This document shows, piece after piece, positions 256-16,820 of a stretch of DNA of 64,000 nucleotides (position 1 is the first letter of the stretch; each line of letters starts with the position of its first letter). The DNA is from Anaerobaca lacustris (GTDB lineage: Bacteria; Planctomycetota; Phycisphaerae; Sedimentisphaerales; Anaerobacaceae), in the NCBI RefSeq assembly GCF_030012215.1, contig NZ_JASCXX010000007.1, positions 1 through 64,000 of the forward strand. The letters are read 5' to 3'. The notes beneath the pieces were generated by a model. The model saw only the letters and a list, made by a program, of their open reading frames with translations. It was not told the DNA's origin and did no database searches. Made by a program: the position numbers and the translations under genes.

Positions 256-669
256 TCACATACCCAGACGCGCCTTCATCAAGGCCATCTGCATCGAGTT
301 CGTGGGGCCCAGCAGAGATTGGGGACCCAGCAGAGATGAAAGACCAAACAGCGACTGCGTGCCCAGCAGCGACTGCGTGCCGAAACCAAGACCACCGATC
401 CCAAAAAGACTCGATGCCCCCAACAGGCCTCCCAGGGGGCGCGTGCCGCTCGACACATTGATGTTGGCCACCGTGTGGCCCCCATCGCCGACCTGATTCA
501 GATCGATCGTCACACTCTGCGTCGATTGCCCATTTTGATTGCCCTGCAGCAGGTCGAGCAGATTGACCGAGCCAATGTCCATTCCCTGGTTCTGAAGGAG
601 ACCTCCGAACGCGCCGGAAGCCGCCAACAGAATGAGAATGATCGAACAAGAAACACCTTTTCTAACCAT
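256..669 (-). CDS. small secreted protein, QG-Q motif family, copy 1
   Basis: I do not recognise the family in any database sense. The 137-residue product begins with a signal peptide (MVRKGVSCSIILILLAASGAFG) and is Leu, Gly, Gln and Ser rich. Residues near 40-60 carry LLQGNQ followed by QSVTIDLNQ, matching LAQGEQ...QNLVVDNQQ and LLQGDQ...QNLVVDNSQ in the neighbouring genes, so it is a paralogue. The C-terminal half is a short tandem repeat of the type LLGTQSLFG, also visible as an imperfect direct repeat in the DNA around 307-381. The start at 669 was chosen because AAAGGAGT lies six bases upstream; an ATG further out would put residues before the signal peptide. Export and cell-surface or matrix assembly is an inference; a curlin-like fibre protein is one possibility. 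Confidence 0.7.
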   Translation of the reverse strand: MVRKGVSCSIILILLAASGAFGGLLQNQGMDIGSVNLLDLLQGNQNGQSTQSVTIDLNQVGDGGHTVANINVSSGTRPLGGLLGASSLFGIGGLGFGTQSLLGTQSLFGLSSLLGPQSLLGPTNSMQMALMKARLGM

Positions 670-745
670 TCCTGGACTCCTTTCAACATGGGTGCTGTTC
701 ACTCCGTTTCGGGTTGCCGATCACGTGTCGGCATTCCCAACACAC
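670..745 (-). promoter_or_regulatory. conserved 5' leader with hairpin, copy 1
   Basis: The leader contains GCCGA-N7-TCGGC (716-732), with ACGT in the loop, followed by a CAACACAC box. The same hairpin, box and a GTTCACTCC block recur at nearly the same distance (47 versus 46 nt from the ATG) before the gene at 3438. This suggests shared transcriptional or post-transcriptional control. No downstream function can be assigned. Confidence 0.5.
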
Positions 746-1035
746 CCTTTGTGCCTGAACTGCGCTGTCCTGGTGGATGGACCCTCACCTCTTCTCCTTC
801 CCGCTGTCCACGGAGGACGCCCGGAAGCGACCGAGGTTGAAGAAGCCCCCTGATCCAGGTTCGCCGCATCGTGAGAAGAGCCTGATCGCCATAGCTGTCG
901 CGGCACACCCGACCAGAGGGCTTCGCGGCATCCAGGCGGATCGCCTTTGCAGGGCGTCGCAGACCAGACATCAAACGGCAACGCACCCTCGCAGCGGCAC
1001 ATCCGACAGGACCCACGTACCATCCTGCCAGTCGA

Positions 1036-1620
1036 TTACTGCATGGCCCCGGATCCCTGGATCTGCTCGCCGACGACTGTCATGCCCGTCATGATGCTGC
1101 CGGCCGAGCCGGGCTGGCCCGACAGGTCCGACGTCTGCATGCCCATCACGGTCGTCGCCTCATCCAGCGTACCGATGGCGTTCGCCCCACTCTGGCCCCC
1201 GTTGAGCACGATCGTGTGCAGCGCGCTGGCCGCACCGGCGCCGTTGGCCCGGCCCAGTTCCTGCATGGCCGTCATGTCCAGGCTGCTGCCCTGGAATTTC
1301 GGACTGATGCAATCCCCGATGTTCTGCCACTGGCCGCCGAGAACACCGAGGTTCTGCGTGGCGGCAACCAGCCCGCACTCACCCATCGCGCCCAGGGCCT
1401 GGCCGATCGAACCGAAGAAACCCTGTCCGGCAGCGCCGACGATACTCTGCTGATTGTCGACGACGAGGTTCTGAAGCGATTCGCCCACCTGCTCGCCCTG
1501 AGCCAACTGGATCAGATTGATGCCCTGAATGCCGGTGAGCTGTTCCTGCTCGGCGCCGGCGAAAGCGCCACTCGCAACGAGGCCGATCACGATCATGGAA
1601 GATGCAATTGCTTTGAACAT
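1036..1620 (-). CDS. small secreted protein, QG-Q motif family, copy 2
   Basis: This is a 194-residue exported protein with an N-terminal signal peptide ending near GAFAG. It has LAQGEQ...SLQNLVVDNQQ at about residues 38-60 and a C-terminal block (ALHTIVLNGGQS, ATTVMGMQTSDL). Both blocks match the paralogue at 2851-3438 closely, including ALHTVVVNAGQS and ATVMGMQTSTL. The body is rich in Gly, Ala, Gln and Asn with no enzyme motif. GAAGGAGTCTGAATA precedes the ATG, giving a good ribosome binding site. It sits alone between long leaders rather than tightly spaced, so each cluster member may have its own promoter. The function is unknown; the composition suggests a structural extracellular protein. 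Confidence 0.7.
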   Translation of the reverse strand: MFKAIASSMIVIGLVASGAFAGAEQEQLTGIQGINLIQLAQGEQVGESLQNLVVDNQQSIVGAAGQGFFGSIGQALGAMGECGLVAATQNLGVLGGQWQNIGDCISPKFQGSSLDMTAMQELGRANGAGAASALHTIVLNGGQSGANAIGTLDEATTVMGMQTSDLSGQPGSAGSIMTGMTVVGEQIQGSGAMQ

Positions 1621-1690
1621 TATTCAGACTCCTTCTGCTATGTGTTGTCCAATCCTTTGAACGTCGCCGAATTCCGTTCGACGACTGCGC
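1621..1690 (-). promoter_or_regulatory. conserved 5' leader, copy 2 (divergent)
   Basis: It shares the GTGTTGT-CCAATCC block and the GAAGGAGTCTGAA ribosome-binding segment with the leader before 3438. The hairpin position holds a different stem, CGTCG (1662-1666) with CGACG (1679-1683). The similarity is partial. Confidence 0.4.
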
Positions 1691-2110
1691 TGCGCGTTGA
1701 AAGACACTCCTTCACTTGCCGAGGTACGACCTCCCTTCTCTTCCCCTCCTCGTTTGTCATGGCAAACATCCACACCGTCTCGCAAGGACAAAGCCCTCTG
1801 ATGCAGGCACGCCGTGTCCCGAAGGAGCCTGAACCAACGCGGTCTGCTGCGGTACGCCTGATCAGAGGGCTCGTAGGTCATTCCGTGGACAAGAACGAGG
1901 TTGTCACTTTGCCAACCCAGAAGCCAGGAGGCTACACATCAGTGTCCTCTCCAGACCCGTCCGATGCACCCTCTATCAAGAGCGATTGCCAATTCCCTTG
2001 CGATTCATGGCCCGGGACACAGGCGACGGCGGGCCCTCCGGCAGCCAAGTCGGCAACATGTTCCGTCCCGACCCGGCTGCCGAACGAAGCCCGACTGGAC
2101 TCCCATGAGA

Positions 2111-2677
2111 CTAATACTGGCCGGCGCTGATGTCGGCGCCGCCAGCGACCTGCATGCCGCCGCCAGGACCGCCACCGACGGCATCATACAGGCTCACGCC
2201 AATTCCTTGCACGTTGGCGCTGCCGCCCCACGGCGTGAACGTCAACTGCGTCTGCACGCCCACAAACGTCTGGAGACCGAGGGCCGAACCCTGTCCACCG
2301 ATCTTGGTGACATCCTGCGCGAGCCAGGCATTGAGATCCTGGCCCTGCAACCCGCTGGCCGGAACCTGCGTTTGCCATCCGCCCCCATACGCAACCTGAT
2401 CGACGTCGAAAAAGCCGACCATCCCGACGGCACCGGCGCTCTGCATCAGCGCCCCGGTCGTGCCCTGGAACGCGGTCGTATGGGTGGGACGATGCGTCCC
2501 CAATTGCGAGATATCCGTGGTCAGTGCGTTGATGTTTCCGGCCGCTCCGTCTCCCACAACGGTCACGCCGTTTTTTCCGAGCAGCCCTGTGGCCTGGTGT
2601 TGAACCAGTCCGACGGCCGTCGCACCAGACGCAACGAGCAGCAGTAACGCAGCCGATACTGCGAATCCCTTGTACAT
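2111..2677 (-). CDS. small secreted protein, divergent family member
   Basis: This 188-residue protein has a clear signal peptide (residues 1-22, SAALLLLVASGATAVG). It is Gly, Ala, Val and Gln rich, with no recognisable catalytic motif and no Cys. It is less like copies 1, 2 and 4 but has a similar size and composition, and a segment (DLNAWLAQDVTKIGGQGSALGLQT) resembling the QSLDVAATQLLGKAGGQG region of the copy at 2851. AAAAGGAGT precedes the ATG by seven bases. Its leader lacks the GCCGA hairpin, although a GTGTTGTG segment remains. Its place in the cluster suggests a minor or accessory subunit of the same assembly, but that is only inference. Confidence 0.65.
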   Translation of the reverse strand: MYKGFAVSAALLLLVASGATAVGLVQHQATGLLGKNGVTVVGDGAAGNINALTTDISQLGTHRPTHTTAFQGTTGALMQSAGAVGMVGFFDVDQVAYGGGWQTQVPASGLQGQDLNAWLAQDVTKIGGQGSALGLQTFVGVQTQLTFTPWGGSANVQGIGVSLYDAVGGGPGGGMQVAGGADISAGQY

Positions 2678-2850
2678 TGTACGAACTCCTTTTCTTCGTT
2701 ACTTCGATTGTCACACTCTGGCACAACACCACAGTGCAATGGGGAGCCCCGGGGCCCATCGCCCTGTCGCGGCCCGAGGGTCGCTTCAGGGCTCCCCGCC
2801 CATTCATCGACAGACGCCTCTGCACCGATGGCGTCAGAACGTCCGTTCGA

Positions 2851-3438
2851 CTACTGGGCTGTCTGCGTCTGAAGCGTGGTCACGGACATCGTGCTGCCCA
2901 CCTCGCCTTGGGCGCCGGGCTCGCCGTACAGGGTCGACGTCTGCATCCCCATGACGGTCGCGCTCTCGGTCATCTGCCCGGAGGCGTTGTTGACGCTCTG
3001 GCCCGCGTTGACGACCACCGTGTGCAGCGCGTCGCCGAATCCCTGGCCGCCGGCCTTGCCCAGAAGCTGCGTGGCCGCAACGTCCAGACTCTGGCCCTGG
3101 ACCTTCTGGCCCACGCCTTCCACGACACCCTGCGTCTGCAGGCTCTCGATCCCGAGATTCTGGAGCACGCCCACGTTGCCGCAGTAACCCCAAGCCGTCG
3201 CGGCCTCACCGACCGACGCGAACAGGTTCTGCGAGGCCTGCGTCCCGCACATGCCCGTCGAGCACTGCGAGTTGTCAACCACCAGGTTCTGCATGGAGCT
3301 GGCCTGCTGATCGCCCTGCAACAGCTCCAACACATTGGCCAAACCGATTCCGGTGCTCTGGATGTGCTGCAGTTGAGCGAATGCGCCCGCGCCCATCACC
3401 AGAACGAACACCATCGAAGCTGCAATCAATTTCGACAT
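2851..3438 (-). CDS. small secreted protein, QG-Q motif family, copy 4
   Basis: This 195-residue exported protein has a signal peptide (residues 1-21, ending GAGAFA). It is the closest paralogue of the protein at 1036-1620: LLQGDQ...QNLVVDNSQ near residue 40, then QSLDVAATQLLG, ALHTVVVNAGQS and ATVMGMQTSTLYGEPG at the C-terminus. Three Cys residues lie in the middle third (CSTGMCG and YCGN), at a position where the paralogue has a Cys pair (ECG, DC). An intramolecular disulphide is therefore possible. The ATG follows GAAGGAGTCTGAAAA. There are no enzyme motifs; an extracellular structural role is inferred from composition. Confidence 0.7.
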   Translation of the reverse strand: MSKLIAASMVFVLVMGAGAFAQLQHIQSTGIGLANVLELLQGDQQASSMQNLVVDNSQCSTGMCGTQASQNLFASVGEAATAWGYCGNVGVLQNLGIESLQTQGVVEGVGQKVQGQSLDVAATQLLGKAGGQGFGDALHTVVVNAGQSVNNASGQMTESATVMGMQTSTLYGEPGAQGEVGSTMSVTTLQTQTAQ

Positions 3439-5993: not shown

Positions 5994-6623
5994 TCAGGCA
6001 CGCGGCGGAACACCAAGGATTGGCGACAGAGCGGGTATGACCTTATCGAGAAGTGCACTCTCGAAGCTGGGGCTGCCTTCGGTAATATTCAGCTCAGGGG
6101 CATTGAGGATGATCTTTTCGCTCTGATCGTATGCCTCAAAGAACTCGTTGTACTTCGAATTGACCTGGTCGAGGTAGTCGTAGGTCATCGGAGCCTCAAG
6201 ATCGCGAGCCCGTTTTCTGATCCGCTCCCAGAGAAACTCGGTCGGGCTCTTCAAACAGATCAGTACATCGGGAGTGGGGATGCGCTGCCTGAGGAAATCA
6301 TAGGTTAGGGTGAAGAGCCTTTGCTCATCGGGGTCCGTTAGAGTCAGGTCGGCAAAGAGGCGGTCTTTGTCGAAAATGAAATCGGCGAAGACAAGTTGGT
6401 CGAACACCCCATCTTGCTGGGCGCGCCGAAGTTGGTGGTAGTGAATGAGGATGAAGTTCATCTCCGTCTGGAAGGCATTACGTTCGGGATCAAGGTAGAA
6501 CTCCGCGATGAATGGATGCCTGCTTGTCTCTTCAAGTAGCGGAGTACCGGCATATCGCATCGAAAGCAGTCTTGCCAAGGTCGTCTTGCCCGTGCCAATA
6601 CACCCTTCCATCGATGCGTACAT
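5994..6623 (-). CDS. deoxynucleoside kinase family protein
   Basis: This 209-residue P-loop kinase transfers a phosphate from ATP to a deoxynucleoside. The P-loop GCIGTGKTT is at residues 7-15, after a short beta strand. EETSRHPF at about 31-38 supplies the conserved Glu region. FADFIFDKDRLFA holds the position of the dNK DRS-type motif, and RIRKRAR forms the lid. Length is normal for the bacterial dAK/dGK group; the substrate base cannot be read from sequence. The start at 6623 follows GAGGTGG at seven bases and lies one base past the stop of the preceding gene, so it is the last gene of the operon. Next to a PurZ-like enzyme, its likely job is making a purine deoxynucleotide substrate; that is inference. 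Confidence 0.85.
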   Translation of the reverse strand: MYASMEGCIGTGKTTLARLLSMRYAGTPLLEETSRHPFIAEFYLDPERNAFQTEMNFILIHYHQLRRAQQDGVFDQLVFADFIFDKDRLFADLTLTDPDEQRLFTLTYDFLRQRIPTPDVLICLKSPTEFLWERIRKRARDLEAPMTYDYLDQVNSKYNEFFEAYDQSEKIILNAPELNITEGSPSFESALLDKVIPALSPILGVPPRA

Positions 6624-6624
6624 G

Positions 6625-7602
6625 CTATTCCACCTCTTCCGACAGTTGCGTATCAGTCTCAATAGGACTCTCAGGAGAAAGCGGAGCTAGATCTGTTTCA
6701 GGAGTAGCAATGGCGGGCGCGGGCTGCATCTGTCCTTCAAGATCATGGATTACGTTCCGAGTCCAGCAGAAGTGCGCATAGATCCCAGTCCAGGTTGCCA
6801 CTATGATCGCAAGAAAGGCTAACACAACCACAATTCCGGATATCCAGCCAACCCTTCGCAAGTCTCGTGTTTCCTCTGCCACCTTGTTTTCCATTTCGTG
6901 GGTGACCTTGTCCAGAGCCGTTCCGACCCGAGTTACCTCCTCTCTGAGTTCAGCAACTGAACTGGTATGCGTGTCCTGTTTTATCCAGTACTTGTGAATT
7001 GGTCTTTCAGGAAGAGGAAAATCTACAATACATTTCCGGCCTTCGACTCCACCGATAGAGCCCTCTTTTCGAAGCGAGTCTGGCGACCAATTCCTTCGAT
7101 TCTGTTCCCAGAAGCTATCCGCTCCGAAAGAAGTCGTCTTCATGAAGCATATCGTAATGATCTCCTCCTGAACCTCTATCGGCTTGTCTTGGTTTGTGAA
7201 GTTGAAAATAGGATAGTAGATATGACCCGAGTATCCTGGGTCAATGAGTGTGCTTCTTCCGGCCAGAAAACCTCGATAGACCTGCTTAACCTTAAGGTCG
7301 TGCTGAGCGATGAGATAGTATGGCAGATTCAGTTTCTCGAATATCTTGATGTAGATGAGCCCGTTCTTCGGGACTACGATTTGGTTTCGCCCATTAGGTT
7401 CGCGGCGCTCGTCTTCCAGCCAGTACTCGTCCCCAACGCGGAGGGTATACGAAGCTGCGTGGAGCAGACTACGCTCAAATGGGGCAATCAGTCCGACCAT
7501 ATCCACGTAGTATTCGATCCGGTCTGACAGAAGAAGTCCGCGCTCTCCATCGGGGTCCGGATCTCGCCATAGAGCATCCTGCCTGAAGGTATTCTTCGCC
7601 AT
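6625..7602 (-). CDS. membrane-anchored dCTP-deaminase/dUTPase-fold protein
   Basis: The 325-residue protein has three parts. Residues about 20-210 resemble the dCTP deaminase fold, with GRSTLIDPGYSGHIYYPIFN at 115-134 matching the Dcd signature IDPGW-SG. Residues about 214-250 are a predicted coiled coil. A single transmembrane helix (about 252-272) is followed by an acidic, Pro-rich tail. In E. coli Dcd the catalytic Glu138 lies ten residues after the signature Asp; here that position is Pro131, so deaminase activity is doubtful. The domain may instead bind a nucleotide. The start at 7602 was chosen because GAGGG sits six bases upstream; an ATG six bases earlier overlaps that site. Soluble Dcd enzymes lack a membrane anchor, so this architecture is unusual. 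Confidence 0.75.
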   Translation of the reverse strand: MAKNTFRQDALWRDPDPDGERGLLLSDRIEYYVDMVGLIAPFERSLLHAASYTLRVGDEYWLEDERREPNGRNQIVVPKNGLIYIKIFEKLNLPYYLIAQHDLKVKQVYRGFLAGRSTLIDPGYSGHIYYPIFNFTNQDKPIEVQEEIITICFMKTTSFGADSFWEQNRRNWSPDSLRKEGSIGGVEGRKCIVDFPLPERPIHKYWIKQDTHTSSVAELREEVTRVGTALDKVTHEMENKVAEETRDLRRVGWISGIVVVLAFLAIIVATWTGIYAHFCWTRNVIHDLEGQMQPAPAIATPETDLAPLSPESPIETDTQLSEEVE

Positions 7603-7625
7603 CCTCATCCCTCTTCTACCCAATA

Positions 7626-8705
7626 TCAGATGGAGACACGTGGATTCCTGCATCCCACAACGGTGGTTTTGGCAATCGCTCGGCGATCGATCAGCTCCTC
7701 GTTGGCCGGGCCAGTCCCGACAAGAGGAACAGGAGTGTCTAACTGAGTTTCCAGTTCTTCAATGAATACCTTTGTGTCAGCAGACAACCCTTCAAGAGCG
7801 ACCTTACTTCTATTTCTGTAGTCAAAATAGTCTGTTCCGAGGACTGCGATTTGCGTCGGGCGATTGACAGCACGGGCCTTCTGAACAAGTTTCAGATCGA
7901 AACGACCAATACGGCGCAAACGCTTTGTCACGCTCGTGAATTCCTGTATAGGCTCTGGGTAGCCACTCGTCTGTTGGAGTTCTTCCCACGTAATTTCGCT
8001 TGCGAGTGGGCCCGAATTGCCGCCTACGCGGATCGGGAAGGTGCGAATCGCCATGATGATATCCGTGACGGTCCGAGGGCTCAGGCCGACCTCGCTCAGG
8101 AAGGCACTCGCCGTTGTGTCCCTGCTCGTGACATACGGATAGTCGGGCGAATGATAGAGAGATAATCCAAAGCCCTGAGTACCTTCGATGATGATTGCTT
8201 TGCTCTGGTCGACACCGTCGTTCAATTCCTCTGAAACGTCGGTAACAAATTCCTTCAACTCAGGCGTGTCTTCGACACGTTTGAATTCGGGGTCTCTGAG
8301 CACTCGTTTGGCGACACCCCTTCCCATGCCCGAAAGCGTCGAGCCCAGTCTTTCTCGCAGCGCCAGCCCTTCTTCCTCCAGCGATTCTGTCTCAGTGATG
8401 ACGCCTGTCTTGTAGTCGATGCCAAGGCGTCCCCGTTCAAGGCCCCATGCCTCGATTTCGTCGAGAAGGACTTTGGGATTCACGATCGCGCCGGGCGCGA
8501 TGAGAAGACGCGTCTTGGGGTTGATCACGCCGACAGGTAACTGGCGAAACACAAATCGTCTGCCCTGATAGTCGACCGTATGCCCAGAATTGGGGCCGCC
8601 GCATCTGACAACAAAATCGGCGTTATCACGTACCGCCAGATAGGACGTGATCTTGCCTTTTCCCTCTCCGCCATACTGACCGCCCACGACTACGGTAACG
8701 CTCAT
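7626..8705 (-). CDS. adenylosuccinate synthetase homologue, short archaeal/PurZ-like type
   Basis: The 359-residue protein belongs to the adenylosuccinate synthetase superfamily, which uses GTP to join Asp to a purine nucleotide. It is shorter than bacterial PurA (about 430) and resembles the archaeal and phage PurZ group in motifs: GGQYGGEGKGK (8-18), NSGHT with His42, EGTQGFGLS, YPYVTSRDTTAS and TSVTKRLRRIGRFD. Bacterial PurA reads GDEGKGK, with Asp13 as catalytic base; here residue 13 is Gly. Loss of this Asp is reported for PurZ, which aminates dGMP to the diaminopurine precursor. GAGGAG precedes the ATG, nine bases after the previous stop. It is probably not the housekeeping purA, given its operon context; the substrate is unproven. 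Confidence 0.85.
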   Translation of the reverse strand: MSVTVVVGGQYGGEGKGKITSYLAVRDNADFVVRCGGPNSGHTVDYQGRRFVFRQLPVGVINPKTRLLIAPGAIVNPKVLLDEIEAWGLERGRLGIDYKTGVITETESLEEEGLALRERLGSTLSGMGRGVAKRVLRDPEFKRVEDTPELKEFVTDVSEELNDGVDQSKAIIIEGTQGFGLSLYHSPDYPYVTSRDTTASAFLSEVGLSPRTVTDIIMAIRTFPIRVGGNSGPLASEITWEELQQTSGYPEPIQEFTSVTKRLRRIGRFDLKLVQKARAVNRPTQIAVLGTDYFDYRNRSKVALEGLSADTKVFIEELETQLDTPVPLVGTGPANEELIDRRAIAKTTVVGCRNPRVSI

Positions 8706-8714
8706 CGAATCTCC

Positions 8715-10262
8715 TCAACGGTAAGCCTGAGGGATGATCAGGTAGCCTTCCTGCTCGTTCCCCAGACCTTCGTAACTGCCCGCAAGATAAAAATAGGCCA
8801 CCAACGCAGACGTCACGGCATCCAGTTCGTCGTGATTGATTTTGCCATTGTTGAAGTCGCCATCGATTCCGAAGTCCAGGAGACCCTGCTTCAATTCCTG
8901 TATGTCCACCTTCTTTCGGATTATACCAATAATGTCCTGGGCTGCACCAGGATAGCTTTCGATTACCTCGAAACCCAACTGCTTGAATTCCTCAGCGAGG
9001 CGTATGCCCCGTCGAGTCAAGCCTCTCATGCTGGGCAACAGGCACGGATAGACGTAGATACCGCGTCGGCGAAGCGTGCGTTCGCATCCCCGCATGATAC
9101 CCAGTTCTGCAATGGCCTTTGCCTCCGGGCCAGGCCCAGCTCTCTTCCCACCGGGGATCGATAAAGGGGAATCTATCGAGACGATCCTGGGTGCCGCTTT
9201 GACCGTTTCCGCGATCAGCTCCTCATCCGTGTTGATCAGCCTCGCTTCGGCGTGGTTTCCCTGCAACACGGCCCACCCGCTCGCCCTCTTTTCCGAGCCG
9301 GTCAAGTCGATCCCGACAACGGGCGGCGCTTCCTTGGCACCACCCAGCTTGCGCAGCAAAGGGGCGATCGTCCTTTGCTTCTTCCTCGGGATCACCATCA
9401 GGTAGGTCTTCTTGCCCGCGCGCAGCTCGACCTGTGTATCGCCGACTCGACGAACACCCGTTGGTCTGCTCTTAGGGGGCCGCTCAATCTCCTGGATGGG
9501 CCTCCGGGCATGCTCGGCTGCGGGCAGAACGCGTTTCTGCATCAGGTCATAGCCGATATCCATGAGCGTCTGCAGGTTCCTGACGTCTTCCCGATTGTAG
9601 TCGACGAGCATTCGGAGACCTTCGATATTGCCGTGTACGTACCTGTTCCAGAAAACGGTCGCATCAAAGCCGTCAAGCCCTGCCATCTCATCGGGCCTTC
9701 GGATGCCAAGGTCGCGTTCGACGACCTTCAGACCGCCGGCAAAGCCAAGCCTTCGAAGGAAGAACCGCAGATCGATATGCGCAGGCCACGCGATACAAGG
9801 GAATCTCTTTCGCAGGAACGGAACGTCAAAGAGGCTCCCATTGAACGTGATCATGAGTTGGTAGCTGGCAAAGTCCTTGGGGAAATCGTCGAGGTTGTGC
9901 CCGGCGATGTAAGCCTTGTATTCCCGCCCATCAAAGAGCCCGACGAGGGTAATCTCATCGTAGTAAGGCGAGAGGCCCGTCGTCTCGATATCGACAAAGG
10001 CCACACGATCTTTGAACTCAGGATACAGACGCCAGAACTCCGACTTGGGTAGCAAGCTGGCGAAGAAGGCCGCATCTTTCTTCTCCAGTCGCTCCGAACA
10101 AGCGGCAAGCCATGTCTTGATCTTGCCTATTTTGCCGGGCGAAAGGTCGAGAGCGGCTTCATTGGCCTCGAACTCCTCCCAAGAGTGAACGCCCTTCCTC
10201 CATATCTCTTCTTCGCTCTTTAGGCCGACACCTGGAACTTGTATGAAGCTGTTCGTCAGCAT
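8715..10262 (-). CDS. YprB-like RNase H-fold exonuclease fused to DUF429 domain
   Basis: The 515-residue protein carries two nuclease-like halves. Residues about 5-32 resemble the helix-hairpin segment of YprB (VPGVGLKSEEEIW). Residues about 86-240 are a DEDD exonuclease with FVDIETTGLS (Asp91, Glu93), FNGSLFDVPFL (Asp146), HIDLR and YNREDV (Asp226). From about residue 315 a DUF429 domain begins with VVGIDLTGS and continues with IDSPLSIPGG and a late DELDAVTSALVA, fitting a second RNase H-like fold. The start at 10262 lies one base beyond the upstream stop and six bases after GAGGG; an ATG five codons earlier would overlap that gene. It is the first large gene of the nucleotide operon, suggesting it acts on nucleic acid tied to that metabolism. 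Confidence 0.8.
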   Translation of the reverse strand: MLTNSFIQVPGVGLKSEEEIWRKGVHSWEEFEANEAALDLSPGKIGKIKTWLAACSERLEKKDAAFFASLLPKSEFWRLYPEFKDRVAFVDIETTGLSPYYDEITLVGLFDGREYKAYIAGHNLDDFPKDFASYQLMITFNGSLFDVPFLRKRFPCIAWPAHIDLRFFLRRLGFAGGLKVVERDLGIRRPDEMAGLDGFDATVFWNRYVHGNIEGLRMLVDYNREDVRNLQTLMDIGYDLMQKRVLPAAEHARRPIQEIERPPKSRPTGVRRVGDTQVELRAGKKTYLMVIPRKKQRTIAPLLRKLGGAKEAPPVVGIDLTGSEKRASGWAVLQGNHAEARLINTDEELIAETVKAAPRIVSIDSPLSIPGGKRAGPGPEAKAIAELGIMRGCERTLRRRGIYVYPCLLPSMRGLTRRGIRLAEEFKQLGFEVIESYPGAAQDIIGIIRKKVDIQELKQGLLDFGIDGDFNNGKINHDELDAVTSALVAYFYLAGSYEGLGNEQEGYLIIPQAYR

Positions 10263-10263
10263 C

Positions 10264-10521
10264 TTATCCCTCGGCATCTCTTCCGCGTGATTGTGAGTTT
10301 GGCTGCTCTTCCACCAGTTGGTGAAGTTTCAGCAGGTAGTCCGTCACCGTCATCCCCAATTCGCCGGCCACGCGCTTAAGACCCTTATGATCTATCTCAG
10401 ACACGCGCATAGTGACCATCTTGTTCTTGCGTAGGGCCTTCTTCAGTCGCTTGGCTCGCATGTGCCTCGTCCGTTGTGCAAATCGATCCGAAACCTTCTG
10501 CGTTGCCTTTCGCTTTGCCAT
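10264..10521 (-). CDS. small ribbon-helix-helix-like protein
   Basis: This is an 85-residue basic protein. An N-terminal Lys/Arg-rich stretch (residues 1-34) precedes MVTMRVSEIDHKGLKRVA and LGMTVTDYLLKLHQLV. That pattern, one strand then two helices, fits the ribbon-helix-helix fold of small repressors and antitoxins. Its stop abuts the next gene (one base between) and its ATG is one base past the stop of the 51-codon ORF, so translation is probably coupled. An inverted repeat in the operon promoter region (10700-10721) would suit autorepression by a dimeric RHH protein. Function is inferred from fold only. Confidence 0.65.
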   Translation of the reverse strand: MAKRKATQKVSDRFAQRTRHMRAKRLKKALRKNKMVTMRVSEIDHKGLKRVAGELGMTVTDYLLKLHQLVEEQPNSQSRGRDAEG

Positions 10522-11414: not shown

Positions 11415-12770
11415 TTATTGGATTTCGACGACGGAGTTGAGTTCGCCGTAGGGGTTCAGCTCGGTGCGTTCGTTGTAGGGGTCCTGCTGCCACTGGCCGT
11501 CGACGACGAGGCGGTAGCGGTAGGTGCCGTTGGGCAGCTTGAGCTTGGCCTGCCAGACGCCGCTGTCGCCGACGCGTTCCATGCAGGTGGCGTCGGGTTG
11601 CCAGTTGTTGAAGTCGCCGGCGATCTGCACGTTCGAGGCGCGTGGATAGAGCGTGACGAAGACGACGGCGTCGCGGATCTGGCTGACGCCGTAGTAGTCC
11701 GACAGCTTCGTGTCCATCGTCGGCGACGATTGGGTGAAGGACTCGACGGATGTCTCAAAGGTCGCTCCGGCCGATTCGGGAAGCGAGATGGGCTCTTCTT
11801 CGAGCTCCAGCGTCTCGGCCACGGGGGAGGACGCCGACTCGACCGCCGCCGGCGCCGGGGCTGGGGCCGCCTGCACCTCAGGTTGGACCTGCGGTTGCGG
11901 CTCCGGCTGCGTCGTCCGAAGCAGCTCCGTCGCGCTCGCCCCGATCGATTCGAGCTGGTCCGCCAGCGTGTCCACCAGACGCTTGCTCTTGGTCACCGAA
12001 CCCTCTTCGGCCCCGATCAGCTCCTGCGCCAGCGACCGGAAGTCCTGCTGCCCCTTGCTCGCCGGATCGTACTCGTTGATCGGCTGCCCAAAACTCGACG
12101 CCTCTTTGATGCGGGTATTGAAGTTAATAACTGTCTTGAACATCCGGTCTGAGAAATGGGAGCGCAGCTCGGCGAGGATCTCACGAGCCATCTTGGTGCG
12201 GATGTCGTACATGCTGGCGAGGACGCGGACGGAGACCTTCTGCTGGCATCGCTTGCAGAGGATGCTAAGCGTCTCCAATTGCTTGCTGAGCCCGTGCAGC
12301 GCGAAATAGCCGGTCTCGACCGGCACAAGGACGTCGGTGGCCGCCCGCAGCGCGGTGAACGTCAGCAGGCTCACGGCCGGCGGACAGTCGATCACCGCAA
12401 AATCGTACTCGGTGCTCACCCCGTCAAGCACCTTCTTCAGGCAGCACTCCCGCTCAGGAATCCCGGCCATCTGCTGCTCGAACGCCGACAGGTCGATACT
12501 CGCCGGCGCCAGCTCCAGCCGCTCGCCGATCTGCCAGAGAATCTCGGTCAATCGCATCGGCTCGTTCCGGCTCTCGCTGATCAGCACGTCGTAAATGCTC
12601 TGCTCGATCTGCTCCTCCGGCACCGCCAGCCCCACCGCACAGTGCGACTGCGGGTCCATATCCACCAGCAGCACCTTCTTGTCCAGCGACGCCAAAGCAC
12701 TGGCCAGGTTGATCGACACCGTCGTCTTGCCGCAACCGCCCTTCTGATTGACCACCGCAATCGTTCTCAT
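11415..12770 (-). CDS. ParA/Soj-like ATPase with C-terminal glycogen-binding domain
   Basis: The 451-residue protein begins with a ParA-family P-loop ATPase: deviant Walker A KGGCGKTT (10-17), LLVDMDPQ near residue 35-42, and FAVIDCPPA near 125-133. This domain ends around 260. A Pro, Ala and Glu-rich linker (about 285-345) leads to an Ig-like carbohydrate-binding module of the AMPK/CBM48 type (about 365-451), seen as VQIAGDFNNWQPD, GVWQAKLKLPNGTYRYRLVVDG and DPYNERTELNPYG. ParA proteins usually move DNA or protein cargo along the nucleoid. The added module suggests cargo positioning of glycogen or of a complex that recognises alpha-glucan; this is inference. No parB lies beside it. The ribosome binding site is weak. 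Confidence 0.85.
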   Translation of the reverse strand: MRTIAVVNQKGGCGKTTVSINLASALASLDKKVLLVDMDPQSHCAVGLAVPEEQIEQSIYDVLISESRNEPMRLTEILWQIGERLELAPASIDLSAFEQQMAGIPERECCLKKVLDGVSTEYDFAVIDCPPAVSLLTFTALRAATDVLVPVETGYFALHGLSKQLETLSILCKRCQQKVSVRVLASMYDIRTKMAREILAELRSHFSDRMFKTVINFNTRIKEASSFGQPINEYDPASKGQQDFRSLAQELIGAEEGSVTKSKRLVDTLADQLESIGASATELLRTTQPEPQPQVQPEVQAAPAPAPAAVESASSPVAETLELEEEPISLPESAGATFETSVESFTQSSPTMDTKLSDYYGVSQIRDAVVFVTLYPRASNVQIAGDFNNWQPDATCMERVGDSGVWQAKLKLPNGTYRYRLVVDGQWQQDPYNERTELNPYGELNSVVEIQ

Positions 12771-14029: not shown

Positions 14030-16012
14030 TCAGATCACCGGAAAGCCAATTGCTCTCAGGTAGTCGAATGTTGGGTCATAGTATGTGGCATTTCGTGTGG
14101 GGTCTTCGGGATCACCCTCGGGGACTACGATCGCCATCCCCTGGCGCGCTCGCGTCAACAACACCCGATAGGCATTCTTTAGGTATGTCTGCCGTTCCGG
14201 CTTCCTGATCCGCTTCCACCGATCGCCACAGAATGACCAATGCTCCCAACCATTCCTCGTATGCCTGAAGTCCCCATCCCATGTCACACACGCCCAGTCG
14301 AGCTCCAAGCCTTGGACATGAAACTCGGTCGCCGCATCTTCCAAGTAGTATGACGATCGCACATCCTCTTTGCCATCGAGAAACCAATGGATCGGGTCCA
14401 ATGGAGTTCGCACATCGATGGCGTGAGGCTTCAATCGTTGTGCCTGCGAGGAGACTACAATCCCGTAGCGCTCGGACCCGCGCGCTTTGTGCCTAAGCCA
14501 TTTTCTTGCTTTGTGCAGGTCGCGGGTAAGGACGATAGGATAACGGTCTGCAATCTGCCCCAGCGTGAGACGTGCTTGGTCTGGCTCTATATCGAGCAGT
14601 TGCTTGACCATCAAAGACACATGCTCGGCGCGAAATGATCGCATGGAAACGGCCAGATGCAATTCGTCTCTGAGCACAACGCCGGGACGGGATGCGATAC
14701 GTTGGAGGGCTTGTCCCCCGCCGTACTCACTGTCGGTCAGGCGCGAGGAAATATAGATGCGCCAGTGCGGAAAGGCGCGGGCCAGCGAGTCGATCCACTC
14801 ACTGATCCCGGCTTCACCGGTGTTGATCTCCTGCCCACCGCCCACCAGGCACACAATGACAGCCCAATCCGGATGTCGATCCAGACACGATATGAGGAAT
14901 TCCGGTTCCGATTGAGAGAAGTCTGGCACGTGTTTCCTGCGGCGCATGAAATCCGCTGTCCGTTCGCGATTCCAGGCGCGTTGCGCTTCATCGAAGAGAG
15001 CAACATGTTCTATTGGCGGCCTTTCCAAGTCGACGAGACACTCGTCGCGAAAATGGTGGACGTTTTGGATGAACGCCTTCACCTGACTGCGCGCCTCACC
15101 TTTCTTCATTCGGCGCCCCCGCTCTGCCTCCCGACGAACTTGGTCGCGTGCCAGTGCCTCACGCAGAATCGCTACCAACGGGCCATTGCCGGAGAGGAAC
15201 ACGCTGTAAAGAGCATTGTCACTATCAATATGCTTGGTCGCGATGTTGAGGCCAACGAGCGTCTTGCCGGCGCCCGGAACCCCCGTCACGAAGCAGACGG
15301 CCTTGTGGGAACCCGCTCGCGCCGATTCAATGATCTCGGAGATGGCGTCAGAGGTCTGGCTGAGATTGATAGCACTGGCGTCGCTCCGCGAAATCTCCTG
15401 AACAGCGTGTCCACTGTATAACGCGGTCGCAGCCTCAATGATCGTCGGAGTCGGACAGTAGTGCCCTTGTTCCCACTGGTCGACAGGAATCGCAGGGCCG
15501 CTGCTGAATTCCAGCACCTCTCTGATGACATCGCCTAATGCGCTGGTGTTGCTAAGGATGGGCAGAAACAGGCCGTCATTGTGTGGAGTCAACGCAACAC
15601 AAGGAGTGATATCGGCAGCTCTGCTCGCTACGAGGACAGGCGCGACCGGAGGATGATGACTTGACTCGTGGAAGTTCTTGAGGTCCAGGGCATAATCCCA
15701 GACCTGATCGATGGCAGACGCTGTGAATTGCTCTTCGCCGATCTTGAATTCGAAAACAAAAATCACGTGATCGATGAGAACCACAACATCGATTCGGCGT
15801 CCCAATCGCGGGATTGAGTATTCAAAGTAGACTTTGCCACGATGCGGATATGCCCCGAGCACCTGTTTCAGAATCCTGATCTCTTCAAGCCATGCATCGC
15901 GTTGTGACGGCTCCAGGTCGTGGACGTGGTTCGTAGCGAGGGTACCGAGAATCGTGGCCGCCTCTTTGTCGAGGAATGTGGCGATGGTATCGGAGTAGTA
16001 TTCGCGTCTCAT
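14030..16012 (-). CDS. PD-(D/E)XK-type nuclease fused to DUF2075 helicase domain
   Basis: The 660-residue protein has an N-terminal restriction-like nuclease segment: [20 protein letters not shown] near residue 70-90 fits the Asp...Glu-X-Lys core. A DUF2075 superfamily-1 helicase-like ATPase follows, with Walker [11 protein letters not shown] near 245, Walker [11 protein letters not shown] near 340, and helicase motif VLLTRARQG near the C-terminus. Such fusions are found in defence islands and repair loci. It stands alone here between palindrome-rich spacers, with no methyltransferase nearby. The start at 16012 (MRREYYSD) is the best position for the domain, although no strong ribosome binding site is seen. 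A frame extending 38 codons further has no better support. Confidence 0.75.
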
Positions 16013-16214
16013 ATATCGAGAAGATCCGCACTTCACATAGGGCTGCCTGCTCAAGCCGATCAACCGGGGATCCCTGTCAGTAGTATCGGCAGAAAGCCAG
16101 CATAGGGCCAGGAAAAACCGGCGCATGAAAACGACCCGTCACAGGGCGATGTCCGCCAGAGGCGGATCGCCCCCACATGATGGGGCGGGTGGCCCGATCT
16201 GCATCGCGGCGTAG

Positions 16215-16373: not shown

Positions 16374-16820
16374 TCAGCGCTGCCGACGGCGGCGCAGTTG
16401 GCGGAGGAACTTGAGGTCGTCCTGGTCTTTGGGTCGGCCAGCCGCCTGTTTCATGGCGATCAGGTCGTCGAGGGAAGCAAACCAGGCGAAGGTGCCGCCG
16501 AACTTGGCTTTGACGCGATGGGCCCAGACGCGCTCGAAGCTCATCCCCTTGACGAAAGGGTGGATGTCCGTCTCGACAATGTACTGGCGAATAAGAACTT
16601 TGTTGGTGAGAAGCTCATCGACAGTGACGTCGGAGACATCGTAGCCAAACGCCTTCAAAGCGGCATGGGTGCGCTCGGCGTTGGCGCGCTTGGGCTCGAT
16701 AAAGACGTCGATGTCCAGCGTCGCGCGCGAATAGCCGTGGACGGGAAAGGCGGTAGCCCCAATGATGACGAACCGCACCTTATGTCCTTTTAGTGACTTG
16801 AGTAGTCCTTCGACGTTCAT
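16374..16820 (-). CDS. nucleotidyltransferase-fold protein, toxin-like
   Basis: The 148-residue protein has the minimal nucleotidyltransferase core. FVIIGATAFPVHGYSRATLDIDVFIEP (about residues 17-43) carries the Gly-Ala-turn and the Asp-X-Asp metal pair. This size and layout occur in AbiEii/MNT-like partners of toxin-antitoxin pairs. SLDDLIAMKQAAGRPKDQDDL near the C-terminus is the usual closing motif of the group. Its ATG lies inside the end of the small upstream gene (overlap about 40 bp), so the two are translationally linked. The module sits between two direct copies of an endonuclease 3' end, suggesting it arrived or was trapped by rearrangement. Confidence 0.75.
   Translation of the reverse strand: MNVEGLLKSLKGHKVRFVIIGATAFPVHGYSRATLDIDVFIEPKRANAERTHAALKAFGYDVSDVTVDELLTNKVLIRQYIVETDIHPFVKGMSFERVWAHRVKAKFGGTFAWFASLDDLIAMKQAAGRPKDQDDLKFLRQLRRRRQR

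Follow-up and report, generated by a model that had tools for sequence, protein, structure and literature searches.

A PurZ-like adenylosuccinate synthetase homologue and its conserved operon in Anaerobaca lacustris

Described PurA and PurZ enzymes and the A. lacustris homologue

The chemistry of 2-aminoadenine DNA is known from phages, and in E. coli PurA an Asp residue reads the guanine of GTP. Asp13 is conserved in 99% of PurA, Ser13 was found in 147 of 147 phage PurZ sequences, and four archaeal PurZ-related sequences, basal to phage PurZ, have either Ser or Gly at this position (PMC12884076, the latter after Tong et al. 2023). In PurZ of phage S-2L, Ser13 is close to the guanine 2-amino group, and an insertion draws a conserved Val towards the sugar C2', which has been linked to exclusion of the ribose 2'-OH (PMC8342488). 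The phages with PurZ0 pair purZ0 with dutZ, whose product is a dUTPase-fold dNTP diphosphatase that converts dGTP and dATP to dGMP and dAMP (PMC12884076).

We studied a purZ-like gene in the first 64,000 nucleotides of contig NZ_JASCXX010000007.1 of Anaerobaca lacustris, the whole stretch being called here the window. The gene encodes a PurZ0-type adenylosuccinate synthetase (AdSS) homologue of 359 aa at 7626..8705, as originally predicted, and lies in the minus strand, with the ATG at 8705, the stop at 7626 and a purine-rich stretch resembling a ribosome-binding site (GAGGAG) just 5' of the ATG. The protein matched Pfam AdSS (PF00709, 2.4e-53), the phage family phrog_1211 (2e-74) and, as its best curated match, the archaeal-type AdSS model (7e-106; 353.9 bits, just below the curated cut-off of 368); these matches and the open frame exclude an ORF arisen by chance. 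The NCBI PurZ model NF038379 also matched (5e-73) with 245.8 bits, below its cut-off of 300. The P-loop region reads GGQYGGEGKGK, with Gly13, encoded by GGA (8667..8669, minus strand), at the site of the PurA catalytic Asp and the phage PurZ Ser; His42, the PurA-type GTP/IMP loops and the Arg loop are retained. The original prediction had described both the substitution and the kept residues, and all of them were found in place.

With the GTP-type PurZ0 enzymes (PDB 7vf6, Gordonia phage Ghobes, Arthrobacter phage Wayne) the window protein shares the lack of Asp13, an IRV-x-GNSG insertion, the guanine Asp and a short archaeal-type fold; a Dut-like gene follows phage purZ0 and a Dut/DCD-like gene also follows the window purZ. 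It differs from them in having Gly13 rather than Ser13, in its separate clade and in its nuclease, kinase and membrane-anchored DCD-type operon partners. PurZ of phiVC8 and S-2L (PDB 6fko/6fm1 and 7odx) also combine the Asp13 loss and a loop insertion with a PurA-like fold, but they use ATP, have Asn or Gln at the guanine position, are 25-28% identical to the window protein in the fold alignment and are accompanied by DatZ and MazZ. Neither of these partners, nor a Z-specific polymerase, was found in the window operon. PurA of the archaeon Pyrococcus horikoshii (PDB 2d7u/5k7x) shares the short chain without bacterial insertions, but it has Asp13, as originally noted for archaeal enzymes, no loop insertion, and a position in the tree from which the window protein is excluded (see below). 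The archaeal PurZ-related sequences (PMC12884076), compared here by description only, share Ser or Gly13 and differ in being archaeal rather than bacterial.

The AlphaFold2 model of the window protein had a mean pLDDT of 83 and an AdSS fold, and the fold search with it returned Pyrococcus PurA as the best hit (TM 0.86, 38% identity), then PurZ0 (31%) and phiVC8 PurZ (28%). That the closest solved sequence is a PurA, and that the archaeal AdSS model is the best curated match, would fit a divergent second PurA which still converts IMP to adenylosuccinate with another residue replacing Asp13. We consider this quite unlikely. One copy of a full-length canonical PurA is present on another contig of the same genome, and the window gene is therefore a paralogue. 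Beside the P-loop, the alignment showed no alternative conserved acidic residue beyond Glu14, which PurA also has, and a plain PurA identity was rejected by the tree, the AU test and the loop insertion. The loops 39-48 and 180-190 of the active site were modelled with low confidence, which limits the AlphaFold2 model as a guide to other acidic residues within reach of N1.

Phylogeny, residue 13 and the loop insertion

In a tree of 46 proteins (IQ-TREE), bacterial and archaeal PurA formed one group (support 99/96). The window protein fell outside it, in a separate group of 13 (94/95), apparently next to PurZ0 and PurZ, composed of itself, all the other proteins of the operon described below (operon I) and five proteins encoded on phage-like contigs, of which several are large (L043, 188 kb; L045, 105 kb; L046, 312 kb). 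Forcing the window protein into PurA was rejected (AU p=0.02), and so was a single bacterial clade of operon-I PurZ (AU p=0.0005), both p values being indicative since the AU tests were picked after the tree was seen. The bacterial and phage copies are interleaved in the tree, and therefore the genes have moved between them. The branching order of the window group, the fusion proteins of the second design (see below), PurZ0 and PurZ rested on weak or open forks, and L004 was a long branch. The original prediction that the enzyme is closer in function to PurZ is borne out, as far as sequences can speak, by three lines of evidence that do not depend on residue 13: the tree and AU test, the loop insertion and the separate PurA. 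In five genomes of the same genus (G001-G005) only partial matches at the level of PurA were found for the window protein, and this absence is as expected for a horizontal gain.

The interleaving with PurZ of the large phage-like contigs (L043-L046), the rejected monophyly of operon I and the absence from the five same-genus genomes could also be explained by phage-derived cargo, i.e., what is left of a Z-DNA phage or mobile element, without a function for the host. This is unlikely, as the order of the partner genes is conserved across phyla, the partners were not recovered together in viral contigs, and all four operon frames are open.

In the 46-sequence alignment, residue 13 was Asp in all the sampled bacterial and archaeal PurA and Ser in nearly all the sampled PurZ/PurZ0-type proteins. 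Gly13 was present in the window protein, in its nearest bacterial relatives from Clostridia (L005), Terriglobia (L006) and Campylobacterales (L007), and in the more distant L008 and L004. The three nearest relatives are 46-52% identical to the window protein and encode Gly13 with codons of their own, so that Gly13 is no sequencing error. Ser13 was found in L034, L038, L130 and L131, members of the same operon family, and parsimony required four Ser/Gly changes within the clade; Gly is therefore a recurrent alternative to Ser. Having already been reported in archaea (PMC12884076), Gly13 was rejected as the key novelty of this enzyme. The prediction was right in that PurZ members have lost Asp13, but it missed that the usual phage replacement is Ser and that both Ser and Gly are known in archaea (PMC12884076). 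As natural variants of one enzyme, the Ser13 and Gly13 forms offer a test of PurA chemistry after loss of the catalytic base.

A second feature is the loop that follows FPIRV, which in the window protein reads FPIRVGGNSGPL, as against FPTRVGAGPF or similar in PurA. The PurZ-type insertion comprises codons 223-240, FPIRVGGNSGPLASEITW (7986..8039, minus strand; delimited by alignment, with its structural role taken from PMC8342488). It is common to the window protein and PurZ0, takes a longer form in phage PurZ and was absent from all the sampled bacterial and archaeal PurA of the 46-sequence alignment. An insertion of the type [FY]PIRV-x-G-x-SG occurred in every sampled Ser13 or Gly13 protein of the operons and of phage PurZ0; in L006, L130 and L131 it was GDQAG-like. 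Insertion and residue 13 are imperfectly linked, because a viral group (L077, L092, L116 and L121) carries Asp13 together with the PurZ-type insertion; these proteins are possibly intermediates between PurA and PurZ, or reversions. The guanine-recognition Asp is kept in the window protein (GTDYFD) and PurZ0, and the corresponding position is Asn or Gln in the ATP-using PurZ of phiVC8, pB23 and S-2L. From the insertion, the lost Asp13 and the kept guanine-recognition Asp, the expected reaction would be dGMP + Asp + GTP -> dSMP, and a dGMP chemistry of the window enzyme is well supported at the level of sequence.

We also considered another modified purine, e.g., a natural product such as a deazapurine nucleoside, as a homologue from Rhizobium leguminosarum (L039) is encoded within a deazaguanine gene cluster. 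This is highly improbable for the window enzyme: the L039 protein groups with PurA and has Asp13 without the insertion, deazapurine genes are missing from the window operon, and a natural-product cluster of this kind was rejected since only this Asp13 homologue fits it. The L039 gene itself (7950-8957, on a plasmid) encodes a short archaeal-type PurA and is accompanied by FolE, QueC/QueD/QueE-like, IMPDH-like, nitrile hydratase and PurB genes, a cluster resembling a deazapurine (toyocamycin-like) pathway.

Operon I and its distribution

The original prediction read the enzyme correctly as PurZ-like but missed the conserved operon around its gene, which is the more interesting feature. All the genes described in this paragraph are in the minus strand. 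Directly upstream of the purZ-like gene, the first operon gene (8715..10277) encodes a 520-aa protein with an HhH-like N-terminus, an RNase_H_2 domain (DEDDh exonuclease) and an RNase H-fold DUF429 domain (Pfam), the latter match being just below the Pfam cut-off; the acidic motifs of both nuclease-like folds were invariant in six copies of the protein. The operon start is overlapped by the end of a gene for an 85-aa NikA/repressor-like protein (10264..10521), a possible regulator with weak matches. Downstream of purZ are genes for a DCD-fold dUTPase-like protein (6625..7653, with the true start probably near 7605) and a deoxynucleoside kinase (PF01712; 5994..6662, probable ATG start near 6623) whose nearest solved relatives are deoxynucleoside and deoxyguanosine kinases. 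The DCD-like protein has a long C-terminal helix with a membrane-type hydrophobic stretch. In all eight of its sequences Pro replaces the deaminase Glu (Glu138 of E. coli Dcd), and a dCTP deaminase was accordingly rejected; the dUTPase-type Asp is kept in most copies, including that of the window, and among solved structures the Thermococcus and Sulfolobus DCD-fold dUTPases are the nearest. Scans of the operon proteins with Pfam and PADLOC found no member of a deaminase, noncanonical-NTP pyrophosphatase or SIR2 family, and membership of the operon in a PADLOC system was rejected, with only weak matches of PDC-S44 to part of the DUF429 region and of VakA to the kinase.

Operon I recurs in metagenome-assembled genomes (MAGs) of Acidobacteriota, Clostridia and Campylobacterales, and a Sinorhizobium plasmid carries part of it. 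The order nuclease, (NMP kinase), purZ, dcd-like, (dNK) was found in the window, L005, L006, L007, L130 and L131, and L034 and L038 keep purZ and the dcd-like gene. The NMP kinase is encoded by an adjacent gene in L006, L130 and L131 and is fused to the nuclease in L007. Relatives of the N-terminal half of the 520-aa protein were common in a sample of 294 genomes of the phylum, and the full nuclease fusion was present in only three of them, the window genome, G211, which also has this PurZ, and G341, where no purZ lies beside it. In G341 the gene (L190, 8523-10640) encodes an RNase_H_2-DUF429-NMP-kinase fusion as in L007. Of 392 genomes of the phylum, 5 had a PurZ-like gene of this kind at E 1e-30, a number that includes the window and one phage-type copy. 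In samples of about 250-350 genomes from other phyla, 1 to 4 passed E 1e-40, at least one case being a canonical PurA. The PurZ-like operon system is rare, and operon I moves horizontally as a unit.

A search of viral contigs gave no relative of the DCD-like protein and, for the nuclease partner, only distant matches to exonuclease domains. The DCD-like profile weakly matched Dut-like proteins encoded just downstream of phage purZ0 (E about 1e-5). The operon-I copies are mostly outside clear defence islands: those of L006 and L130 have gyrA or housekeeping genes as neighbours, and that of L007 adjoins an integrase-like gene, as read from the sequence. In the window, a Schlafen-group-3 helicase protein, which PADLOC lists as candidate defence (PDC-S41, 4.7e-286), is encoded 4 kb upstream of the operon (14030-16126, minus strand).

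A second gene design and the proposed function

In a second design, an N-terminal NMP-kinase-like domain is fused to a PurZ domain with Ser13, and DUF7002 follows. It was found in two genomes of the same phylum (L035 and L036) and on rhizobial and related plasmids (L040-L042, L135, L137 and L138). On the alphaproteobacterial plasmids, a divergent YfbR-like HD protein and a conserved protein of 450 aa, for which no known family was matched, flank the fusion. Defence genes are close to this design: L137 has Gabija beside it (GajA 3e-203, GajB 8e-181), L138 carries SIR2-HerA and AbiE genes, L041 a gene annotated as AbiJ-NTD4, and L036 defence genes of the HmaC-like and helicase kinds. Upstream of the fusion, L035 (8486-10033) and L036 (6222-7715) encode a protein that combines an IrrE-type peptidase domain with a C-terminal region whose match to DarG (macro domain) is weak.

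Because the second design adjoins defence genes, and operon-I copies do so less clearly, a part in phage conflict is suggested mainly by the former, and it is from there that we infer the role of the operon, possibly in defence. We favour, as the probable reading, a cellular PurZ0-type enzyme that converts GTP, Asp and probably dGMP to dSMP in a horizontally spread deoxynucleotide operon, most likely serving phage conflict by means of a modified dNTP that acts as poison, signal or substrate. The enzyme would use GTP as phosphate donor and join Asp to a 2-amino-purine deoxynucleotide, most likely dGMP, to yield N6-succino-2-amino-dAMP (dSMP), from which host PurB would then release 2-amino-dAMP (dZMP). 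Gly13, like the phage Ser, would remove the catalytic Asp needed for IMP and make room for the 2-amino group. The DCD/dUTPase-like protein may be a dNTP diphosphatase supplying dGMP, as DutZ does in PurZ0 phages, the double-nuclease protein may release dNMPs or act on DNA, and the dNK or NMP kinase would phosphorylate (d)NMPs, including the product. In the simplest model, dGTP or DNA-derived dGMP would pass through dSMP and dZMP and, by the operon kinase and host NDK, to dZTP, which could poison phage replication, act as a signal in the manner of Kongming (PMC12948488) or mark DNA.

A signalling defence similar to Kongming would share this PurZ chemistry and differ in the roles of the partners: the PurZ-like enzyme and kinases would make a non-standard dNTP (e.g., dZTP), and the membrane-anchored DCD/dUTPase-like protein would be its sensor and effector. 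Kongming makes dITP by means of a modifying enzyme and dNMP kinases, and KomB senses it (PMC12948488). The same logic could be seen in the operon, where a modifying enzyme and kinases occur together with a nucleotide-binding fold whose C-terminal helix is long and has a hydrophobic stretch, and in the location of the second design in defence islands. We regard it as a possible but doubtful assignment: the DCD-like protein mostly keeps the dUTPase Asp and is nearest to active dUTPases, so it may be an enzyme. KomA, KomB and KomC are absent from the window operon.

Within the favoured reading of a cellular dSMP-forming enzyme, we tentatively propose that mobile bacterial anti-phage operons might make dZMP/dZTP from dGMP and use it in immunity, either as a poison or as a second messenger, phage PurZ being the other side of an arms race; the mixing of bacterial with phage sequences in the tree is consistent with it. 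If true, 2-aminoadenine chemistry would gain a bacterial role, being made by bacteria as well as phages, a cellular PurZ operon could explain the origin of phage PurZ, and the operon would be a testable candidate for a non-standard nucleotide in bacterial immunity. Our search of the literature outside subscription journals and most preprints found nothing on a bacterial PurZ operon or on DUF7002 or DUF429 in defence; neither the conserved operon nor the related design in defence islands seems to have been described in the literature searched.

Other genes of the window were also of note. A DUF6036 nucleotidyltransferase-like gene (16374-16820) adjoins the Schlafen-group-3 helicase gene, four related small proteins that look secreted are encoded in tandem in the minus strand at 256-3438 (256-702, 1036-1620, 2111-2677 and 2851-3438), and an unusual fusion of a ParA-type ATPase with a C-terminal glycogen-binding domain (AMPK1_CBM) is encoded at 11415-12770, also in the minus strand.
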